Positions 10,950-21,566 of a stretch of 54,394 nucleotides of DNA are shown in pieces. Source of the stretch: Okeania sp. SIO2C9 (GTDB lineage: Bacteria; Cyanobacteriota; Cyanobacteriia; Cyanobacteriales; Microcoleaceae); assembly GCF_010672455.1 (NCBI RefSeq), contig NZ_JAAHGO010000060.1, positions 1-54,394 on the forward strand. The letters are read 5' to 3'. The translations under genes and the position numbers were made by a program. Below the pieces are notes generated by a model, which saw only the letters and a list, made by a program, of their open reading frames with translations, was not told where the DNA came from and made no database searches. Positions within the stretch are counted from its first letter, which is position 1. Each line of letters opens with the position of its first letter.

Positions 10950-12968
10950 ATGGCTGTTGCAACTCAATCACTCGAAGAACTTTGTATTAACTCAATCCGC
11001 TTCTTAGCAATTGATGCAGTTCAAAAAGCTAATTCTGGCCACCCTGGACTACCCATGGGTGCTGCACCAATGGCCTTTGTCCTCTGGGATAAGTTCATGC
11101 GCTTTAACCCCAAAAATCCTAAATGGTTAAATCGCGATCGCTTCGTTCTCTCTGCGGGCCATGGCTGTATGTTACTGTACGCTCTCATGCACCTCACGGG
11201 TTTTGACAGTGTACCTATGGAGGAAATTAAACAATTCCGTCAGTGGGATTCTAAAACTCCTGGCCACCCAGAAAATCACATCACTGAAGGTATCGAGGTT
11301 ACTACAGGTCCACTAGGACAAGGTATTGCTAATGCTGTAGGATTAGCTGCTGCTGAAGCTCATTTAGCTGCTACATTCAATAAGCCAGACTGTAACCTAA
11401 TTGACCATTACACTTATGTGATTATGGGTGATGGTTGTAACATGGAAGGAATTTCTGGTGAAGCTGCTTCCTTAGCTGGACATTGGGGTTTAGGTAAGTT
11501 AATTGCTTTCTATGATGATAACCACATTTCCATTGATGGTCATACAGACATATCCTTTACTGAAGATGTAAGTAAGCGTTTTGAAGCTTACGGTTGGCAC
11601 GTTCAGCACGTTGTGGATGGTAATACTGGTTTAGATGCGATCGCCGAAGCAATTGAAAAAGCAAAAGCGGTTACTGACAAACCTTCCATGATCAAAGTTA
11701 CCACTCTTATTGGTTATGGTTCTCCTAATAAAGCTGATACTCACGATGTTCACGGTGCAGCACTGGGACCAGATGAGGTAGCAGCTACTCGCAAAAATCT
11801 TGGTTGGGAATATCCAGAATTTGAAGTTCCTGCGGATGCTCTGAGTCATTTCCGCCAAGCAGTTGACCGAGGAGCAAAATATCAGGAAGAATGGGATAAG
11901 CTTTTCTCCGACTATAAGTCTAAGTATCCTGAAGATGCAGCTACTTTGGAAAGAATGGTAAGTGGTAAATTACCTGATGGTTGGGCGGATGCACTACCTA
12001 AATATACTCCTGAAAGCAAGAAGGATGCTACTCGTAACCAGTCTGGTGCAACATTGAATGCTATAGCTGGAGTTTTACCAGAATTAATTGGTGGTTCTGC
12101 TGACTTAGCACCTTCTAACAAGACTTTAATGAAAGGTTTAGGAGATTTCCAAAAAGGTCAATACCAAAACCGGAATATGCGTTTTGGTGTGCGGGAACAT
12201 GGAATGGGAGCTATTTGTAACGGTATTGCTCTCCATGGTTCTGGTTTAATTCCTTATGGTGCAACTTTCTTGGTATTCACCGACTATATGCGGAACTCTA
12301 TCCGTCTATCTGCTTTAGCTGAAGCTGGTGTTATTTGGGTAATGACTCACGACTCTATTGCTTTAGGTGAAGACGGACCTACTCACCAACCTGTTGAGCA
12401 TATTGCATCCTTGCGTTTAATTCCACAATTACTTGTGATGCGTCCTGCTGATGGTAACGAAACTTCTGGTGCATACAAAGTAGCAGTGGAAAAAGCTAAA
12501 GGAAGTCATCCTCAACCTACTTTGTTAGCATTATCTCGTCAAGGTTTGCCTAATTTAGCAGGTAGTTCTATTGATGGGGTTGCTAAAGGTGCTTATATTG
12601 TTAGTGACAGCGAAGGTACTCCAGATATTATCTTAATTGGTACTGGTGGGGAAACTTACCAATGTGTTGACGCTGGTGAAAAACTCCGTGCTGAAGGTAA
12701 GAAAGTGCGAGTGGTTTCTATGCCATGTTGGGAATTATTTGAAGAGCAGGATGCAGCTTACAAGGAGTCTGTGTTCCCTGCATCTGTGAAGAAGCGTTTG
12801 GCAGTTGAAGCAGGTGTTAGTTTTGGTTGGCATCGTTATGTAACTGATGAAGGTGCGACTTTGAGTGTTGATACTTTTGGTGCTTCTGCTCCTGGTGGTG
12901 TTGTGCTTGAGAAGTTTGGGTTTACTGTTGATAACATTGTTGCTAAAGCTAAGGAAGTTTTGGGTTAG
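10950..12968 (+). CDS. tkt: Transketolase
   Basis: The 672-residue thiamine-diphosphate enzyme of the Calvin cycle and pentose-phosphate pathway moves two-carbon units between sugar phosphates. Visible landmarks are the N-terminal [10 protein letters not shown], the TPP/Mg motif [18 protein letters not shown], and [10 protein letters not shown] plus [11 protein letters not shown] in the pyrimidine-binding half. An open frame continues 39 codons upstream, but the ATG at 10950 ([11 protein letters not shown]) fits the family N-terminus. It is monocistronic, with a hairpin at 13113-13140 downstream. Codon use is regular, as for a highly expressed gene. Confidence 0.98.
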
Positions 12969-13112
12969 TTTTGATGGTGAATAAGCGTTGAGCATTTAGC
13001 ATTCAGCAGTCAGCTACAAAATAATAGCGTTAAAGTTTTATAGTTGTCTTAACTTGAGTGCGTAGTGCTATATCTGCCTATTAGCTGTATCAAAATATCA
13101 ACTATAATTAAG

Positions 13113-13140
13113 GAGGTTCTCTAGAAATAGGGAACCTTTT
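13113..13140 (+). terminator. Terminator between tkt and the toxin-antitoxin pair
   Basis: GAGGTTC pairs imperfectly with GGGAACCT around a TCTAGAAATA loop and is followed by a T tract (TTTTTAATTTTTTT). It is about 145 bp past the tkt stop and directly before the toxin-antitoxin leader, so it could stop tkt read-through. Confidence 0.7.
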
Positions 13141-13165
13141 TAATTTTTTTATATAATTGGAGGAA

Positions 13166-13459
13166 ATGATGACTCAAGCTTCTGTGGAAAAAAATACAGC
13201 AATTAAAAGAATTTCAGAAATGATTGATAAAATAATGGAAAAGGAGAACATTTATCAAAAATTAGACCGAAATGAACTAATTGAGACTTTCTCGAAATTA
13301 TTAGACAAAATTTCTCCTCAAGAGATAAACTCTCTGGATAATCTGGAATTAACAAAAAGAATAGAAGGAGTAATTATAGTAGACGCAATGTCTCATTTAT
13401 TAGATGATTTTACGCCAGAACAAATAGAAATTTTTGAAGCAGGAGTAGCAGGTAAATAA
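13166..13459 (+). CDS. Putative antitoxin of a PIN toxin pair
   Basis: A 97- or 98-residue, mostly helical, charged protein (MTQASVEKNTAIKRISEMID...). I do not recognise a named family. Its place 5 nt before a PIN-domain gene, with a GGAGG Shine-Dalgarno at 13159-13163, makes it the likely antitoxin or chaperone partner. Two ATG codons (13166 and 13169) are in tandem; the second gives MTQASVEKN, the start also preserved in the decayed copy at 16883. Acidic and basic residues alternate in the first half and the C-terminus is FTPEQIEIFEAGVAGK. No DNA-binding motif is obvious. Confidence 0.7.
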   Translation: MMTQASVEKNTAIKRISEMIDKIMEKENIYQKLDRNELIETFSKLLDKISPQEINSLDNLELTKRIEGVIIVDAMSHLLDDFTPEQIEIFEAGVAGK

Positions 13460-13464
13460 CAATA

Positions 13465-13881
13465 ATGAGTTACTTATTAGATACAAATATAGTGACGGCT
13501 ATTATCAAAAAAAGTCAAGGATTAATAAATAAATTAAAATTAGTTAATTTCCAAGGTAAGTCATTATTTATTAGTTGCATTACTTACTATGAAATTAAAA
13601 GAGGATTATTATATATTAATGCTACAAGACAGCTATCTGACTTTAATGATTTGTGTAGCAGAAGGTGGAGTATTTTATTCTTAGACAATTTAGAAATTAT
13701 TGAGAAAGCATCAGAAATTTACATAGATTTGAGAAAGAAAGGCAGACTAATACAAGATGCTGATATACTCATTGCATCAACGGCAATTATTCACAATTTA
13801 ACTCTAGTTTCTAATGATTCTGATATGTCTAGGGTGCAGGGAATAAATTTAGAGAATTGGTTAGATGTGGAAAAGAATTAA
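13465..13881 (+). CDS. PIN-domain ribonuclease toxin (VapC-like)
   Basis: A 138-residue PIN-domain protein. The acidic catalytic set is visible: Asp6 (LLDTNIV), Glu43 (YYEIKRG), Asp98/Asp100 (QDADILIA) and Asp118 (SNDSDM). VapC-type PIN proteins are Mg2+-dependent ribonucleases held inactive by a cognate antitoxin; here that is the gene ending 5 nt upstream. The pair is intact. Two degraded copies of the same module lie about 3.7 kb downstream (16883-17366 and 17412-17610), which points to local duplication and loss. Confidence 0.88.
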   Translation: MSYLLDTNIVTAIIKKSQGLINKLKLVNFQGKSLFISCITYYEIKRGLLYINATRQLSDFNDLCSRRWSILFLDNLEIIEKASEIYIDLRKKGRLIQDADILIASTAIIHNLTLVSNDSDMSRVQGINLENWLDVEKN

Positions 13882-14000
13882 AGAGATTTTTGCCCAAGTT
13901 ATTAATATAATTAGAAATAACTAAACGCCAGTAGGGTGTGTTAGCGATAGCGTAACACACCACAACCCTATATCTATAAAAAAGGTTGGACTGGAGGTAT

Positions 14001-14132
14001 TCAACAATTAATAATGAATAATGAATAATGAATAATTACCTCTCCTTGAAAAGAAGAGGATTGACTAATAATGAAAATTTTTATTTATTATCCCCTTAAA
14101 AGGGGAGGCTTTAAACCACAATTTTTCGGTAA
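14001..14132. repeat. Conserved 125-130 bp interspersed element, copy 1
   Basis: Starts TCAACAATTAATAATGAATA, has a TGAATAA minisatellite, an ATTACCTCTCCTTGAAA segment and CCCCTTAAAAGGGG, and ends CACAATTTTTCGGTAA. Near-identical copies lie at 21818-21941 and 23331-23455. Inverted or degraded relatives occur near 3640-3880, 30625-30780 and 35402-35570. Confidence 0.8.
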
Positions 14133-14208
14133 AAGTAGTGGCAACTCATCCCCAATGCAGATTAGCTTTGTGTAAAGTTATTTCAGAAAGCGGGAAATTG
14201 CTCTAAGT

Positions 14209-15400
14209 TTAATTTTGACAATTTCTCACATATTCCTGAAAAATTGGAGACAATTTAAAATGAACTTTTCCATTGTAAATTTTCTTGACTAAATACCTTT
14301 GTTGTAAAGATTGCCAGCTATTAATTAAATTCATTGATGACCAATCTAAAGTTGTAATTAAATCTTTTCTGGTTACAGGTTGGTCAAATTTACTCAATTC
14401 TAAAACAAGTTGTTTTTCTAATGGTGATGATTTGTTAAATAATTGTTTGAGAATACCTTGTATATCTTTAGTAATTAATAAATCATTTTCAGCTAAAAAA
14501 ACAGCTACATGACCGTCAAAAATATTTTTGATTAAACCAGCAATGCTTTTTAAGTAAACTGGATTACCTTGATATAAATTGATTAACTTTAACCAACTCC
14601 CTTCATCTTTGAATCCTACACCTTTGAGAATCGCCACTTCATCTAAACCTGATAATTCTAAGTATTTAATAGGATATAAATCCTGGTCTAAACATTCCAT
14701 TTCTGCACATTGCTCTTGACTAATTAAAATTAGACTGCTTTGATGTTCAATTTCTGTCATCATTTGCCAAAAGCTTTGATAATCTTGATATTCTTTTTGA
14801 TATTGTCCGGCAAATTCACCACTGATAAATATATTTTGCACATCATCTAGAATAATTAAACATTTTTTCTCAGTCAGTAGAGCAAATAATTGTTTTAACT
14901 GCTCATCAATGGTTTATTTTACTTCTTCTTGGCAAACTTGTAATAAATCATTCAGAAGTAAAGGCAAAGATTTGGGATATTTCAAACTTTTCCAGATGAT
15001 CAATTCAAATTTTTGTAAGTTAGAATCGACAAACTTTTTAACTAGAGTTGTTTTACCAATTCCACTTGTTCCTAAGACTGATATTAAACGAGTATTTTGA
15101 TTGAATATCCAGTTCTCAATGTTTTTTAGTTCGGAATATCTACTATAAAAATTAATGATTTTAGGTGCCAGGTTTAAATCTTGAATAGCTGATTGAAATT
15201 GAGAATTTATATCAGTTTCTTGGAATTTTTTTTTTGGGAGTGACTTGATTTAATGTTTGGGGATTAGACAAATGATTATTAGCACAATTGATATGGTAAA
15301 TATTGAAATTTTCAGATGATTCAATATAGATTCTTTCTAATGTAGAACGAAAATTATTTTTTTTATGTTTTCCCCTAATACTTCTGATAAAAGCTTCCAT
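14209..15400 (-). pseudogene. Broken STAND/NB-ARC-type ATPase gene
   Basis: Three consecutive frames on the minus strand read as one protein. The N-terminus MEAFIRSIRGKHKK starts at 15400. A frameshift at a 10-base homopolymer (15226-15235) joins it to a segment with a P-loop (LGTSGIGKTTLVKKF). That frame is then cut by an in-frame TAA (14914-14916) where EEVK runs into TIDEQLKQL. The last part contains a Walker B-like CLIILDDV and a winged-helix-like tail ending EYVRNCQN. Such ATPases act as signal-controlled switches in defence, regulation or cell death. About 397 codons would be a short member lacking C-terminal sensor repeats. The nonsense codon argues for a dead gene. Confidence 0.8.
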
Positions 15401-15488
15401 AAATCCGCATCGTAAAAGGGGTTGACTTATAAATATCGTTACATTTACAAGGCTACCCTTACTTTTACACCAGATGCTTCGTCAGAAA

Positions 15489-16646
15489 TCAAACTTTTCG
15501 AGCAATAACATTTGCCCATAAGGAACGACGCCAGGTAATGTCAATATCCACAAAGCCAATTTCTCTCAGCCAATCTACGACTGTCATAATAGGGATATGC
15601 TGGTCATAGCGTCGATCATGATCCCAAAAATGATTCCATTCCTCATCTGTTGCCCCTACCTCATAAGCTGCTCTTTTCCATTCTTCATTATAGCGTTCAT
15701 GGACCCGATCATTAATCCCACGAAAGATATCGGAGTAAGAGAATAACCCATCAGACTTTAACCACCGATGTACATTGTGGAACAATTGTTTTTTATTGGT
15801 ATCATTTAGATGATGCAGACTGATGTATGAGAGAACGTAATCAAAGGTGGCTTCTTTGAAATCCAGCGTCATAAAGTTCTGCTCATAAAGGTGGATGTGC
15901 TCATTCTTCGCAAAGCGCTGTTGACAAAAATCGATCATCTTACTGGAACTATCTACAACATGAACATTCGCTTGTGAGTAGCGTTCTAGCACAGCAGCGG
16001 AAAGATTACCAGTGCCACCACCGAGTTCAAGGACATTCGGCGCAGTGGACTCATTTTGTAAGTTATCCAGCGTTACCCCAAGATTCTCTTCGTACCAGGG
16101 AACCCACAAACGGATGAGTTGATTATATTCTCGTGCGAGTGAGTCGAATTCTGCTTGTATGTAAAAGGAACGTACTACACCAACTGTTAATTTAATACGA
16201 GTCCACAAACCCGCACTTTTGACAAATTCATCGAACTCAATGAGACCATTACCATCGACATCAGCTTGTTGCATCAACGTTTCGATGCCACGATCGCTAA
16301 CGTTAATATTCAAACCATCAAGCAATTCTCGTAGTTCATCAGTTGAGATAGTACCGTCGTTATCCAAATCAATTAGGCGAAAAATCTCTAATAAATCGTT
16401 TTTAGAAGTTATATCGACTTTATCTACAATCCATTGAGAAAATTCGTCAAACTCAATCGTATTGCTTACATCTTTATCAGTACTAATGAAGATGGACTTT
16501 ATATCTTCAGTGTTTGGGTTCATTCCCAGAGAACGCAGAACATTCATTACCTCTTCAGGTGATAATGAGCCATTACTATCAGTATCAAATGAATCAAAGA
16601 CTTGTTTCAATTCATTAAGAGATAATTGTGTAGTTTGTTTAGACAT
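15489..16646 (-). CDS. Calmodulin-like EF-hand / SAM methyltransferase fusion
   Basis: The 385-residue protein has two parts. Residues 10-145 hold four EF-hand loops: D21-E32, D57-E68 (Asn in place of the Gly), D93-E104 and D129-E140. They are spaced about 36 residues apart as in calmodulin, and each keeps the acidic 12th residue. Residues 165-385 form a class I SAM-dependent methyltransferase: motif I VLELGGGTGNLS (205-216), Asp232 at the end of strand 2, and FDYVLSYISLHHL (268-280). It looks like a Ca2+-switched methyltransferase; the substrate is unknown. The gene appears less AT-rich than its surroundings and sits between a dead STAND gene and decayed toxin-antitoxin copies, so transfer is plausible. 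Confidence 0.9.
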   Translation of the reverse strand: MSKQTTQLSLNELKQVFDSFDTDSNGSLSPEEVMNVLRSLGMNPNTEDIKSIFISTDKDVSNTIEFDEFSQWIVDKVDITSKNDLLEIFRLIDLDNDGTISTDELRELLDGLNINVSDRGIETLMQQADVDGNGLIEFDEFVKSAGLWTRIKLTVGVVRSFYIQAEFDSLAREYNQLIRLWVPWYEENLGVTLDNLQNESTAPNVLELGGGTGNLSAAVLERYSQANVHVVDSSSKMIDFCQQRFAKNEHIHLYEQNFMTLDFKEATFDYVLSYISLHHLNDTNKKQLFHNVHRWLKSDGLFSYSDIFRGINDRVHERYNEEWKRAAYEVGATDEEWNHFWDHDRRYDQHIPIMTVVDWLREIGFVDIDITWRRSLWANVIARKV

Positions 16647-16882
16647 TACTTAAATATTTTTTCAAATTATACCGTTATTCTTTGATTAGGTCAATCCTAT
16701 ATTCAAAGTTCGGATTAGTGCAATTCAATAATACTTTAGTTTGGACTAATTTGCATTCAAAAGCAATAAAGAGGATGGATGGCAGGAGAAATTTATCCAT
16801 TTGAAATAGTCTATAATTCAAGAGTTTTTCTAGTAATCAAGAACCCTTTTAATTGATCTGAATGATAAGCAGAATAAATATT

Positions 16883-17174
16883 ATGACTCAAGCTTCTGTG
16901 GAAAAAAATACCGCCATTAAAATAATTTCAGAAACAATTGACCAAGTAATGGAAAGCAAAAATATTTACCAATAATTAGATCAAAATCAACTCATTCATA
17001 CTTTCTCTAATAATTTAGAGAAAGTGTCACCTCAGACGGTAATATATCTAGATGATGAACTACTGACAAAAAAAGTTAGAGGAGTAATGTCAATAGAACT
17101 ATTATCAACAATATTTGATTATTAGCCCAGAGCAAATAGAAATGTTTAATGCAGTAGTAGAAGGGAGATATTAG
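16883..17174 (+). pseudogene. Decayed copy of the 13.2-kb antitoxin
   Basis: Begins MTQASVEKNTAIK like the intact gene at 13169. An in-frame TAA at 16973-16975 replaces the residue after NIYQ, and a frameshift near 17120 precedes SPEQIEMFNAVVEG. Otherwise it aligns along its length with the 97-residue antitoxin. Confidence 0.85.
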
Positions 17175-17175
17175 G

Positions 17176-17366
17176 GTAACTTATATACTAAATATTAGTA
17201 TAGTTTCAGCAGTTGTCAACCAGAATTAAAAAATTATAGGAGGAGATTATGATATCATGTCCGTTTGCAGCAACGGGAATTATTCATAATTTAATTCTAG
17301 TTTATAATGATTCTGATATGTTAAGAACTGAAGGAATAAAATTAGAGAATTGCTTAGAGATATAAT
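17176..17366 (+). pseudogene. Internally deleted PIN toxin copy
   Basis: The first 60 bp match the start of the intact toxin with stop codons. After a large internal deletion the C-terminal part is readable: AATGIIHNLILVYNDSDM followed by GIKLENCLEI and a stop at about 17366. It directly follows the decayed antitoxin copy, as in the intact pair. Confidence 0.75.
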
Positions 17367-17411
17367 AGAGTAATATCGCTGTTTAATTAAAGTCAATTTA
17401 CAGGAGGATAT

Positions 17412-17610
17412 GATGATTCAAGTTACCGTGTTTAATGAGTTTTGTTAAGAAGTTACAATTTTATTGTTAGACAATTTATCAATTATCGAAACAGCATCAG
17501 AAATTAACATAGACTTGAGACGAAAAGGAAGAACAATATAAAATGCCGATCTATTGATCGCAGCAACGGCAATAATTTATAATTTAACTCTGGCCTCTAA
17601 TAGACATCTC
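17412..17610 (+). pseudogene. Third, fused toxin-antitoxin remnant
   Basis: A GGAGG-led start (MIQVTV) resembling the antitoxin N-terminus runs straight into toxin sequence: ILLLDNLSIIETASEINIDLRRKGRTI, a stop codon, then NADLLIAATAIIYNLTLAS. The middle of the module is lost. With 13166-13881 and 16883-17366 this makes three copies at successive stages of decay. Confidence 0.75.
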
Positions 17611-18314
17611 CAATAATAAAAAATAAAATCAATTATCGCACTCTTATTTATCAATTATTTCCCTCTACTCCCTACTCCCTACTCCCTACTCCCTCTTTTC
17701 CGGAGAGGTTTAATTATTTTGATATATTGAAAGTTGAGGGGATAAATGCAGAGAATCACTTACAGGCTAAATAGAGCGATCGCAGTTACTTAATATTTTT
17801 TTATAATTCCTCATACTTGTATAATTATACTTATTTTTATTGATTGCTTAAGATTTTGAGTTAGGGGAAATTAATGATATATTTAAAGATAATGGAATAA
17901 TAGTTATTAGTATTAAGTGAAATTATCATGTATATACTAACTCCATAAAAGTATCAAGTTCGTATTTCAGTCATTGAATAATCTTGACAAAATTTATAAA
18001 ATAGTCTAGTGCCGGATGGCAGAAATAACTGACCAGTTACAAAATCCTAAAACAATTACAAATCAATACTTTTGACTTTTGACTTTTAACTTCCGCGTAG
18101 CGGCACTAGGGAGAAAAATCTCACTAGGATAAATATCATTATTAAATATATATATTTTTTGGTATAGTAATTAACCGGAATTAACTCACATCGCCAAGAA
18201 TAGTTGAATTAAAGCATCCGTGTAATTTCTTGAGAAAATGTTAAATATTAAAAATCATCTTTGAAGTAAAATTACTAAAGATTAAGAATTGTAAAAAATG
18301 GGAGTTATGCAGTA
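17611..18314. repeat. Spacer upstream of the GT4 gene
   Basis: No gene is seen. Contents: a CTCCCTA tandem heptamer at about 17662-17694, a HIP1 octamer near 17778, and the second CTAGTGC-family element at 18006-18109. The last 200 bp, free of repeats, should contain the glycosyltransferase promoter. Confidence 0.55.
18006..18109. mobile_element. Small inverted-repeat element (CTAGTGC family), copy 2
   Basis: A 104-bp unit with CTAGTGC and GCACTAG ends and the same interior as 3958-4069. The two differ mainly in the number of CTTTTGA heptamers before the right end, so length varies by tandem-repeat slippage. Confidence 0.6.
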
Positions 18315-19502
18315 ATGAAAATTCTTGTATTAAGCTGGGAGTTTCCACCAAGAATTATTGGAGGCATAGCACGTCATGTTGCAGAATTATACCCAGAAAT
18401 GGTGAAATTAGGACATGAAGTGCATTTAATCACAGTCAAGTCTGGCGAAGCGCCAATGTATGAAATTGTAGAAGGAATAGAAGTACATAGAGTGCCAGTC
18501 GGACCCAGTCAAAACTTCTTTCATTGGATAGCAAATATGAATGAAGCTATGGGTCGTCATGGAGGCAAACTAATAAAAGAAGAGAAAAATTTTGATATAA
18601 TTCATGCCCATGATTGGTTAGTCACCGATGCAGCGATCGCTCTTAAACATATCTTTAAACTACCATTAATAGCTACAATTCATGCCACAGAAAATGGTCG
18701 TCACAATGGTATTCATAATCATAGTCAACAGTACATAAATGAAAAGGAAAAAGAGCTAGTTTATAATGCTTGGCGAGTTATTGTTTGCTCTAGATATATG
18801 AAGGTAGAAGTTGCAATAACTTTAGGCAGTCCTTGGGATAAAATAGATATAATTTATAATGGTATTTGTGGGGCAAAAAAACCAAGCAGAGATGAGTTTG
18901 ATGCAGTAAACTTTCGCAGGCATTTTGCAGAAGATCGAGAAAAAATTGTCTACTATTTAGGTAGGATGACCCCAGAAAAAGGTCTTTCTGTGTTAATTCA
19001 TGCAGCGCCGAGAGTAATTGCAGAAATGGGAGACAGGGTAAAATTTATTATGATCGGTGGCGGAAAAACAGACCTTTGGAAAAGAGAAGTCTGGCATTTA
19101 GGAATTTCTGAAAGATTTCATTTTACTGGGTTTATGTCTGAGGAAAATTTAGATAAGTTTCAAGCGATCGCTGACTGTGCAGTATTTCCGAGTTTGTACG
19201 AACCTTTTGGTATTGTTGCCTTGGAAAGTTTTGCTGCGCGGGTACCTGTGGTGGTTTCGGATACGGGTGGTTTACCAGAAGTGGTAGAACATGGTAGAAC
19301 AGGTATTGTTACGAAAGTTGGTAATTCTGCTTCTTTAGCACAAGGCATTTTGGAGGCGTTGAGAGACTCTGGTTATATGCAAAAATTGGTTAGTAATGCT
19401 TATCAGGAATTAGAGTATAAATTTTGTTGGGGTAGGATAGCGAAACAAACAGACATGGTTTATCAGAGAGTTGCAGCAGAAAGGTTACAAGTGGTTTGGT
19501 AA
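18315..19502 (+). CDS. Glycosyltransferase family 4 protein
   Basis: A 395-residue GT-B fold retaining glycosyltransferase. The N-terminal domain opens with MKILVLSWEFPPRIIGGIARH, the glycine-rich loop typical of GT4 and glycogen-synthase-like enzymes. The C-terminal nucleotide-sugar domain has YYLGRMTPEKG and the E-x7-E pattern in EPFGIVALE, then DTGGLPEVV. No signal peptide or membrane segment is seen, so it is cytosolic or peripheral. The acceptor (exopolysaccharide, glycolipid or glucan) cannot be read. It is a single gene ending at a strong hairpin (19503-19545). Confidence 0.9.
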   Translation: MKILVLSWEFPPRIIGGIARHVAELYPEMVKLGHEVHLITVKSGEAPMYEIVEGIEVHRVPVGPSQNFFHWIANMNEAMGRHGGKLIKEEKNFDIIHAHDWLVTDAAIALKHIFKLPLIATIHATENGRHNGIHNHSQQYINEKEKELVYNAWRVIVCSRYMKVEVAITLGSPWDKIDIIYNGICGAKKPSRDEFDAVNFRRHFAEDREKIVYYLGRMTPEKGLSVLIHAAPRVIAEMGDRVKFIMIGGGKTDLWKREVWHLGISERFHFTGFMSEENLDKFQAIADCAVFPSLYEPFGIVALESFAARVPVVVSDTGGLPEVVEHGRTGIVTKVGNSASLAQGILEALRDSGYMQKLVSNAYQELEYKFCWGRIAKQTDMVYQRVAAERLQVVW

Positions 19503-19545
19503 TACATTAAAGAGGGAAGTTCCATAGACTTCCCTCTTTAATGTA
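19503..19545. terminator. Long perfect hairpin terminator
   Basis: An 18-bp perfect inverted repeat, TACATTAAAGAGGGAAGT (19503-19520) with its complement at 19528-19545, around a 7-nt loop. It starts at the base after the glycosyltransferase stop. TTTA/TAAA arms allow action on both strands. Confidence 0.85.
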
Positions 19546-19559
19546 TCGTAATATTAATA

Positions 19560-19824
19560 GGACTTACGCACCTGCAACGTATTTTAGTCCGAAGCGACCG
19601 ACAGGGTTTGCGGAGCATTCCGGGACGGAAAGCAATCTCATATAAAATCCGGTTGAATACTTATCTTATATTTGGGGGTGGGAAGTGTGGGGAGGGTGGG
19701 GAGTGTGGGGAGAAGGGGAGGTCGAGAGATTGAAGGCTCCGAAAGTGTGGATAGAATTATAAACATATACTGTATAACCGGATTCTATATCAAATCCTAG
19801 TTTTTCGTACCTCATGCGTAAGTC
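19560..19824. mobile_element. GGACTTACGCA-family element with a nested insertion
   Basis: Ends are GGACTTACGCA and TGCGTAAGTC. It matches the uninterrupted 112-bp copy at 44631-44742 (shared GACAGGGTTTGCGGAGCA and CTAGTTTTTC), but is split after AGCAATCTCA by a 149-bp insertion at 19641-19789. Confidence 0.75.
19641..19789. mobile_element. Nested MITE with 3-bp TCA duplication
   Basis: Ends TATAAAATCCGG and CCGGATTCTATA (11 of 12 paired) are flanked on both sides by TCA. The uninterrupted homologue at 44631-44742 has a single TCA at the matching point. The interior is GTGGGGA-type tandem repeats. It belongs to the TATC..TCCGG family seen at 25684, 40862 and 53647. Confidence 0.75.
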
Positions 19825-20378
19825 ATATTTCTGAAGATTTCATATATAGCACTGCGCGCAGGCAACAGGCAATAGGGGGAATAATACCAGTTTGAAAAAA
19901 GAATGTTATAGAAAGTGCATCTCGAACGGATCTGCTTAAAAATAGCTTCTCCAGTTCGTTTTAGATGGTTATATCTATCGTTTTCCCTTTTTTTTTAATA
20001 TTTCTTCCTTCTTCCTTCTTGCTTCTTCCTTCTTCCTTCTTTCGTACGGACGTTGCATGCAACGTCTCTACTATTTGCAACAAACGTTGATCAAATTGGT
20101 ATAAAAAAGCTGATAATATAGAACCCATTTGATAGCTATATAATTATGGTAGTCAAGTCTTTTCGCGCATCAATTTTGACCGAAAATCAGTTATCAGTTC
20201 AGGACTTACGCAAATTCACCTTTGAACTCAACATTCTTTGTTAATCAGGACTTACGCAGGGACTGGCGAGGGCGTTAGCGGAGCTTGGCGTTAGCCAATG
20301 CCATTTGCCCCTACAGATGGTGCTTTAAAGGTCAATTTGCCTAAGTCCTATTAATTTTAAAACTGACAAAGAAAAAAC
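19825..20378. repeat. Repeat-filled spacer before the cysteine desulfurase 3' end
   Basis: No gene is seen. It contains the second TAATACCA-family element (19882-20104) with a CTTCCTT minisatellite inside, and further AGGACTTACGCA ends at 20203 and 20249 with the partner CTAAGTCCTA near 20342. Confidence 0.6.
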
Positions 20379-21566
20379 TCAATTATTTTTGACTTTTGAC
20401 TTTTGACTTTGAGTAGCTTGACGTAAAGATGTAATAGTAGCGATCGCGTGTTCGGCCACCAAGTCTATTTCTTCAGCAGTATTAAACCGCCCGATGCCAA
20501 AACGCACGGAAGCATAAGCTAATTTTTCTGAACGTCCCAAAGCTGCCAAAACATGGGAAGGCGCTATTTTTGCAGAAGTACAAGCAGAACCGGAAGACAC
20601 TGCCACCACAGGTTGTAACCCCAATAACAATGCTTGCCCATCCACACCCTCAACACTAATATTCAAATTTCCTGGCAAACGCTGAGTCGGATGTCCGTTG
20701 AGAAAAATATTTTCCACTGTTTGCAGCTTTTCCCACAACTGTTGTCGCAAAGTAGTTAACTGTTTTGCCTCTGACTCCATTTCTGTTACTGCCAATTCCA
20801 CAGCTTTAGCAAAACCGACTATTTGGGGAGTATACAAAGTGCCAGAACGCATACCTCTTTCGTGACCGCCCCCATGTATTTGAGGTGCTAATTTTACTCT
20901 GGGATGACGACGACGTACATAGAGAGCGCCAACACCTTTTGGTCCGTAAACTTTATGGGCAGTTAATGATAGTAAATCAATATTCATTGTCTGCACATCT
21001 AGAGGAATTTTGCCAATAGCTTGTGCAGCATCAGTATGGAAAATAATGGAATTTTCTTTACATATTTCTCCTATTTTTACCAAAGGTTGTAAGACACCAA
21101 TTTCATTATTTGCTGCCATAACAGAGACTAATATTGTATCAGGACGTATGGCAGTTTTTAGGGAAGTTAAATCAATAATTCCATCTGTATTTACTGGTAA
21201 ATAAGTAACTTCAAATCCCAAGTTTTGTAAATATACACAGGGGTCGAGAACGGCGTTATGTTCGGTAGCAATAGTAATAATATGTTTACCTTTATTGAAG
21301 TAAGCTTCAGCAACTCCTTTTATTGCTAAATTATTTGCTTCTGTCGCTCCACTGGTAAAGACAATTTCTTCAGGGGTGGCGTTAATAGCTGAAGCTAAAA
21401 TTTCTCTAGCTTTTTTAACTGCTGCCTCTGCTTCCCAACCATATTGATGAGTGACACTGGCAGGGTTGCCAAAATATTCGGTGAAATAGGGCAACATTGT
21501 TTTTAATACTCGTTCATCAAGAGGAGTAGTCGCGTTGCAGTCGAGATATATAGGACGTTTTAACAT
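20379..21566 (-). CDS. Cysteine desulfurase (IscS/NifS family)
   Basis: A 395-residue PLP-dependent enzyme that takes sulfur from cysteine for Fe-S clusters and thiocofactors. PLP and active-site residues are visible: His103 (TEHNAV), Asp179 (HTDAAQ), Lys205 (TAHKVYGPKG) and the persulfide Cys329 (SSGSACTS), with GGGHERGMRSGT at 232-243. The extended loop around Cys329 fits the IscS/NifS (group I) type. No isc, suf or nif genes are adjacent, so the housekeeping IscS role is only likely. The last 10 or so residues (QSQKSKVKNN) are encoded by CTTTTGA heptamer repeats and probably are not conserved. Confidence 0.95.
   Translation of the reverse strand: MLKRPIYLDCNATTPLDERVLKTMLPYFTEYFGNPASVTHQYGWEAEAAVKKAREILASAINATPEEIVFTSGATEANNLAIKGVAEAYFNKGKHIITIATEHNAVLDPCVYLQNLGFEVTYLPVNTDGIIDLTSLKTAIRPDTILVSVMAANNEIGVLQPLVKIGEICKENSIIFHTDAAQAIGKIPLDVQTMNIDLLSLTAHKVYGPKGVGALYVRRRHPRVKLAPQIHGGGHERGMRSGTLYTPQIVGFAKAVELAVTEMESEAKQLTTLRQQLWEKLQTVENIFLNGHPTQRLPGNLNISVEGVDGQALLLGLQPVVAVSSGSACTSAKIAPSHVLAALGRSEKLAYASVRFGIGRFNTAEEIDLVAEHAIATITSLRQATQSQKSKVKNN

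Follow-up and report, generated by a model that had tools for sequence, protein, structure and literature searches.

The stretch of DNA analysed here (contig NZ_JAAHGO010000060.1 of Okeania sp. SIO2C9, 54,394 nucleotides; called the window in the following) carries on its minus strand a single uninterrupted open reading frame, from ATG to stop, for a protein of 385 amino acids (Table 1). Two kinds of domains were recognized in it by Pfam, EF-hands (EF-hand_7, 4.5e-27) and a class I methyltransferase (Methyltransf_25, 1e-21, profile positions 1–97 of 97; Methyltransf_12 likewise over its full length), and the strength of both matches is far beyond chance. The best two of the 16 EF-hand_7 matches genome-wide are those of this gene. 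The original prediction had described four EF-hand loops at calmodulin spacing, each with an acidic 12th residue and the second with Asn for Gly, together with a methyltransferase with an intact motif I. All of this was found again: the four 12-residue loops are spaced by 36 residues, each has Asp at position 1 and Glu at position 12, loop 2 comes close to the canonical form (Asn at position 6) and the other three have it, and motif I reads VLELGGGTG.

Table 1. Features of the fusion gene and its surroundings (positions in the window).
Feature	Position	Strand	Basis
Four-EF-hand module and class I methyltransferase, one CDS, 385 aa	15489..16646	-	ORF, Pfam
EF loop 1, residues 21-32, DTDSNGSLSPEE	16551..16586	-	sequence alignment
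EF loop 2, residues 57-68, DKDVSNTIEFDE, Asn at position 6	16443..16478	-	sequence alignment
EF loop 3, residues 93-104, DLDNDGTISTDE	16335..16370	-	sequence alignment
EF loop 4, residues 129-140, DVDGNGLIEFDE	16227..16262	-	sequence alignment
Exit segment W148-F161, WTRIKLTVGVVRSF, resembling the post-EF4 segment of EF-hand/arginase fusions	16164..16205	-	alignment
Methyltransferase domain, residues 162-385, boundary inferred	15492..16163	-	Pfam, solved-structure matches
SAM motif I, VLELGGGTG, residues 205-213	16008..16034	-	alignment
D232, ribose-binding Asp	15951..15953	-	alignment
H278-H279, His-His-Asp metal site	15810..15815	-	alignment
D348, His-His-Asp metal site	15603..15605	-	alignment
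Y174, aligned with the lid gatekeeper of CysG/BelI (Tyr/Phe18)	16125..16127	-	alignment
Block 93.7% identical to an Okeania sp. SIO3B5 contig (L092 5706-6944)	15459..16697	.	contig comparison
Promoter-like site TTGACC-17-TATAAT, 11/12, within the SIO3B5-shared block	16666..16694	-	promoter pattern scan

Among solved structures, calmodulins align with residues 1–143 of the protein (about 1e-25). Judged by its sequence, the N-terminal part is a calmodulin-like four-EF-hand module, for which Ca2+ binding is predicted. A tree of EF-hand modules (12 rows, with long branches) grouped it with calmodulin and with the EF-hands of cyanobacterial proteins of about 800 amino acids (see below), apart from the EF modules of arginase fusions; with regard to a eukaryotic origin of the EF part, this tree gave no clear placement.

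The nearest solved relative of residues 163–384 is the methyltransferase MM_2633 (3dtn, 1.2e-33), followed by CysG and BelI (9fcd, 9fce; E 3e-19 and 6e-21) and, more distantly, by phosphoethanolamine methyltransferases. CysG and BelI are O-methyltransferases of the cystargolide and belactosin pathways, with substituted malates as substrates and a His-His-Asp site which holds a catalytic Ca2+ (PMC11408123). As described in that work from 2024, the metal site is gated by the N-terminus and residue 18; EDTA removes the metal only when the N-terminus, the gate or the site is damaged, and the activity of the wild-type enzymes despite EDTA was interpreted there as tight metal binding. The exchange H123A in CysG led to far lower activity; H123N retained 91% with Ca2+ (PMC11408123).

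Conservation of these residues was assessed in an alignment of 60 methyltransferase rows (57 genome rows, two of them identical, and three solved rows). The Asp at the ribose position is present in 60/60 rows, and the complete His-His-Asp in 44, those of the window protein, MM_2633, CysG and BelI among them. Among the 16 rows without the full set, ten have Asn for Asp, five have a gap there (two of them with another change), and one is the orthologue of the fusion in Okeania sp. SIO3B5, where Tyr at position 279 gives His-Tyr-Asp, one of the three metal ligands being changed; by alignment, then, not even the two fusions share an intact metal site. The gatekeeper column contains 45 Tyr, 11 Phe and 4 gaps, and Y174 of the fusion is aromatic as well. 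As to the closest free-standing methyltransferase family, a tree of 57 rows placed the methyltransferase half on a long branch (1.9), with only L012, L018 and L052 as weak company (73/98).

Concerning the substrate, both a small molecule and a protein had been proposed originally; the nearest solved relatives favour the former and speak against the latter. In docking, the substrate carboxylates of CysG are held by Arg22, His167 and Arg187 (PMC11408123), which correspond in the fusion to Ile178, Trp323 and Asp344, the last by an uncertain alignment. Since these residues are not kept, the protein was not called a 3-isopropylmalate methyltransferase, and its substrate is probably a different compound. 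A related methyltransferase/acetyltransferase protein (L084) lies beside an HMGL-like gene according to Pfam, L086 and L087 appear alike by their similar starts, and L087 also has a PhzF-like gene near the methyltransferase. Such neighbourhoods are reminiscent of the CysG/BelI pathway, which employs an isopropylmalate synthase homologue.

A full-length orthologue is present in Okeania sp. SIO3B5 (L009; 91% identical, 34 of 385 residues different), and neither copy contains a stop or frameshift. An error of assembly or annotation, i.e., separate genes joined artificially, which had been named as a finding that would overturn the fusion, was dismissed because of this orthologue; two assemblies carry the entire frame. 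Between the two copies, 38 changes at 906.9 non-synonymous sites stand against 33 at 248.1 synonymous sites (Fisher p 1.5e-6). The dN/dS ratio (NG86) is about 0.28 overall, about 0.35 for residues 1–147 and 0.25 for residues 166–385; thus, dN is below dS in both halves and the gene is under purifying selection. The neighbouring glycosyltransferase gene of the same two genomes served as control (0.027/0.151, about 0.18); compared with it, the fusion gene appears constrained, but more loosely. Its dS of 0.153 is similar to the 0.151 of the control, and hence the two copies appear to date back to when the genomes split. In the EF loops of the orthologue, positions 1 and 12 are all kept, and changes at coordinating positions are from Asp to Asn only.

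The fusion is rare. In five genomes of the genus Okeania, it was complete in two, and a third (G386) has a fragment of 92 bases, 94.6% identical to positions 15736–15827 of the window, again next to the glycosyltransferase gene; in G387 and G388, the surroundings of that gene contained no fusion sequence. At the order level, 96 of 388 genomes gave a match at 1e-15 or better, and only G000 and G389 matched across both halves; the copy in G389 encodes the same protein as the SIO3B5 orthologue and was counted once. In a sample of the phylum without G389, 56 of 386 genomes matched at 1e-10, and G000 was the only one across both halves. In both searches the best four or five candidates per genome were scored. 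Conservation in several genomes, which had been expected of a real system, was thus obtained in so far as a second genome carries the orthologue; two order-level genomes of 388, with the best few candidates per genome scored, speak against a widespread system. A scan of bacterial contigs, restricted to close relatives, yielded a single fusion, from Okeania, and a single distant methyltransferase.

The halves were also seen apart. Genome G585 has a broken methyltransferase (46–53% identical) with a frame beginning at the N-terminal helix of the enzyme itself, and the 8 kb read there contained no EF match; G442 has a broken EF module (57% identical) with no methyltransferase match after it; because of these two, the fusion point is probably near residue 161. 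Four longer frames with a methyltransferase match (G420, G480, G407, G501) were rejected as fusions, since tblastn gave no EF match; that of G420, the only one of them scanned with Pfam, is a methyltransferase with an acetyltransferase. An origin from phages or plasmids was likewise rejected: phages gave no match to the fusion protein, viral contigs none to the whole protein, and among 26 plasmid records none covered 80% of the query, the 20 matches listed being to the methyltransferase half only.

The block shared with SIO3B5 comprises little beyond the gene and the promoter-like site. Promoter-like sites are hardly commoner in this region than by chance (nine in positions 15200–17200, as compared with a mean of 8.4 in shuffled sequences), which makes the site weak evidence by itself, albeit it scores best of the nine. 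When positions 12900–20400 of the window were compared with the SIO3B5 contig, nothing outside the block matched. There, the gene is situated near a contig end with different neighbours on the visible side, and the glycosyltransferase locus of SIO3B5 itself (L090) lacks it; for these reasons, at least one move of the fusion gene is probable. Its neighbours in the window are two frames without Pfam match, of 210 and 100 aa, and a PIN-domain gene, and no operon was seen among them. Repeated, partly decayed toxin-antitoxin-like units, each a PIN-domain gene with a small partner, were observed at 13157–13881 and 16880–17601 of the window and also in L088–L091; they are located between the transketolase and glycosyltransferase genes, and their copy number varies within the genus. 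The term accessory island, as suggested, applies loosely, to a variable stretch with PIN-domain repeats beside a conserved glycosyltransferase gene; no mobile element was noticed in it.

Residues 146–161 (GLWTRIKLTVGVVRSF), directly after the fourth EF-hand, are identical in both Okeania fusions, and within them the string "IKLTVGVVRSF" joins the EF-hands to the N-terminal lid of the methyltransferase. A counterpart of this exit segment, e.g., "ELKITVAALRSF", is found at the same distance from EF4 in EF-hand/arginase fusions of cyanobacteria. The segment is positioned 17 residues past the F-x-E-F of EF4 in the fusion and in all eight arginase modules with "RSF"; the pattern required "RSF" and left the spacing free from 10 to 22, and was applied to nine arginase loci, of which L099 had no match. 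Three of the eight modules (L083, L096, L097) are from one genus, and two (L101, L020) are interrupted genes. The scores of the segment were attained in 1 to 58 of 100,000 shuffles, and none of 66,144 control pairs of 17-mers from the catalytic halves (against L083) reached 27, the maximum being 21. The likeness ends right after the segment, the next ten residues scoring -18 to -21. The exit segment may therefore belong to the sensor module; it could also be convergent, since the EF tree separates the EF module of the fusion from those of the arginases. The residues W148, V155 and F161 might suggest a 1-8-14 pattern of calmodulin targets; the arginase EF modules lack W148. The hydrophobic moment of the exit segment is modest (0.21).

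The EF-hand/arginase fusions themselves, for which no published name was met, are proteins of about 500 amino acids (L083 2289–3791, L096, L022, L097, L098, L100); Pfam analysis of L083, L096 and L022 gave Arginase at 1e-48 to 4e-50 in addition to EF-hands. The gene in L083 lies directly 3' of a gene for an AMP-binding/PP-binding/thioesterase protein, which suggests a natural-product setting. With such a fusion as query, 15 of 340 order-level genomes matched, eight with both parts in one place, one with the parts in two places and six with arginase only; among the eight, the EF part of G509 is interrupted by an in-frame stop and G565 ends at a contig edge. Thirteen matches came from 386 genomes searched with a profile: the window gene, EF-hand/arginase proteins of two genomes, five relatives from small genomes and five proteins of about 800 amino acids, which match just to the end of EF4. 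The small-genome relatives (L128, L129, L130, L131, L134) are from cyanobacteria of another family with 2.5–3.7 Mb and have an arginase (Pfam checked on L131) but another exit segment, LADLKRLKK. The proteins of about 800 amino acids (L023, L025, L028, L105) possess four N-terminal EF-hands and a C-terminal part with CPYC (Evr1_Alr by Pfam in L105) and are perhaps of the Tic110-like or cysteine-rich type mentioned in PMC7016017; matches of this type with a TAA inside were noticed in G577 and G586, genomes of 1.4–1.5 Mb. Viral relatives of the EF-hand module could not be confirmed.

Predicted structures had a mean pLDDT of 43 (alignment of two sequences) and 57 (nine sequences). In the latter model, the methyltransferase core around residues 200–300 was mostly at 73–91 and the linker below 50; the best Foldseek match was 3dtn (TM by target 0.55), in loose agreement with a class I fold. 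Because of the low pLDDT, particularly of the linker, no claim on domain arrangement was drawn from the models.

Taken together, the protein could be a Ca2+-gated, SAM-dependent small-molecule O-methyltransferase acting probably on a carboxylate, a reading of the sequence data, including Ca2+ control and substrate, to which we would give about an even chance. A rise of cytosolic Ca2+ would fill the EF-hand lobes; these would clasp or shift the exit segment (residues 148–161), which is basic and hydrophobic and continues into the N-terminal lid (residues 162–185) with the gatekeeper equivalent Y174. Movement of the segment would open or seal the active site, together with the metal site under the lid. 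The outcome would be Ca2+-controlled methylation of a small acid, switched either on or off, and Ca2+ may have two roles, in regulation and perhaps as the metal for catalysis. Since the sensor attaches where related enzymes keep their gate, the coupling would be a natural one, and a Ca2+ switch appears plausible. A bolder version, which we regard as rather doubtful, would be a doubly calcium-dependent enzyme with a portable switch, i.e., a cyanobacterial calmodulin-like module with a built-in target helix attached to metal enzymes as unrelated as a His-His-Asp methyltransferase and an arginase, where Ca2+ would open or seal a lid over a second, catalytic metal.

The EF-hands might instead be structural or buffering elements, with Ca2+ always bound, or fed to the His-His-Asp site, stabilising an enzyme whose activity is independent of Ca2+ signals. 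Ca2+ is abundant in seawater outside the cell, which would count for this, and the canonical loops 1, 3 and 4 and the nearly canonical loop 2 would permit constitutive binding. There is precedent in bacterial EF-hand proteins such as calerythrin, apparently buffers or transporters (as treated in PMC10574481). We consider this explanation rather unlikely, for a sensor is fitted better by the calmodulin-like spacing with similarity over 143 residues and by a lid-joining segment which resembles that of another EF-hand enzyme. Less probable still is a young fusion of little or no use which moved as a small cassette, was left in two genomes and decayed elsewhere. The confinement of the SIO3B5 homology to the shared block, the glycosyltransferase locus there without the gene, the fragment in G386, the broken halves in G585 and G442 and the changed metal ligand of the orthologue all fit such a history; against it stand the selection against amino-acid change in both halves and two copies free of stops or frameshifts. 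That the module serves for substrate targeting in a protein methyltransferase, catching helices which resemble calmodulin targets, would agree with the binding of helices by calmodulin-like modules and with the single-chain layout, but is quite improbable, as the solved relatives with a named activity (CysG, BelI, phosphoethanolamine methyltransferases) use small molecules.

If the bolder, doubly calcium-dependent version is correct, the protein would be a self-contained Ca2+-switched bacterial methyltransferase, with a logic analogous to that of plant Ca2+-dependent protein kinases. Second messaging by Ca2+ through calmodulin-like proteins is unsettled in bacteria, largely because few direct couplings of Ca2+ to an enzyme are known, and the fusion gene should be a good test case. 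Sensor, coupling segment and readout would share one soluble chain of 385 residues; Ca2+ affinity and Ca2+-dependent turnover should thus be directly measurable. A comparable linker could be tested independently in the EF-hand/arginase fusions, and, should Ca2+ be required in the active site as well, one ion would be both signal and cofactor.

In comparison with known systems, the EF module shares with calmodulin four loops at nearly the same spacing and 49 of 143 identical residues; calmodulin is a stand-alone target-binding protein, and the present protein is not such a regulator, since its module sits in one reading frame with an enzyme. CysG, BelI and MM_2633 have in common with the catalytic half the class I fold, the His-His-Asp, the lid Tyr and the aligned SAM residues (the lid being outside the aligned stretch of BelI), but are free-standing and without EF-hands, and CysG and BelI belong to beta-lactone gene clusters. 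The N-terminal EF module recurs in the cyanobacterial EF-hand/arginase proteins, which share with the fusion a Trp behind EF2, the "LID" of loop 3 and an exit segment of the form K-x(6)-RSF; they differ in their catalytic partner, a degenerate loop 2 and an EF identity of only 30–34% with the fusion. In the same genome, C-terminal EF-hands were noted on an MFS transporter (L102 1776–3500) and on a pyridoxal-dependent decarboxylase (L103 2472–4850). Ilborin, with two relatives in Moorea producens and Okeania hirsuta, also combines EF-hands with a domain like that of a metabolic enzyme, but this is of the pyruvate-carboxyltransferase/HMGL-like type, and the protein is mostly known from invertebrates (as described in PMC8864356).

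That no fusion of the present kind had been described holds for the methyltransferase partner: bacterial EF-hand/methyltransferase fusions were named in none of the titles and beginnings of abstracts listed by searches of the open PMC literature, and "methyltransferase", "SAM-dependent" and "arginase" do not occur in the main text of PMC7016017. It does not hold for the architecture as such. Schaffer et al. 2020 reported cyanobacterial calmodulin-like EF-hands joined to 7TM, Tic110-like, NO synthase and NADPH oxidase domains (PMC7016017), the same combination of module and effector as in the Okeania protein, where both domains likewise lie in one open frame that is kept in more than one genome. 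Measured against the fusions in the text of that study, only the catalytic partner is new.
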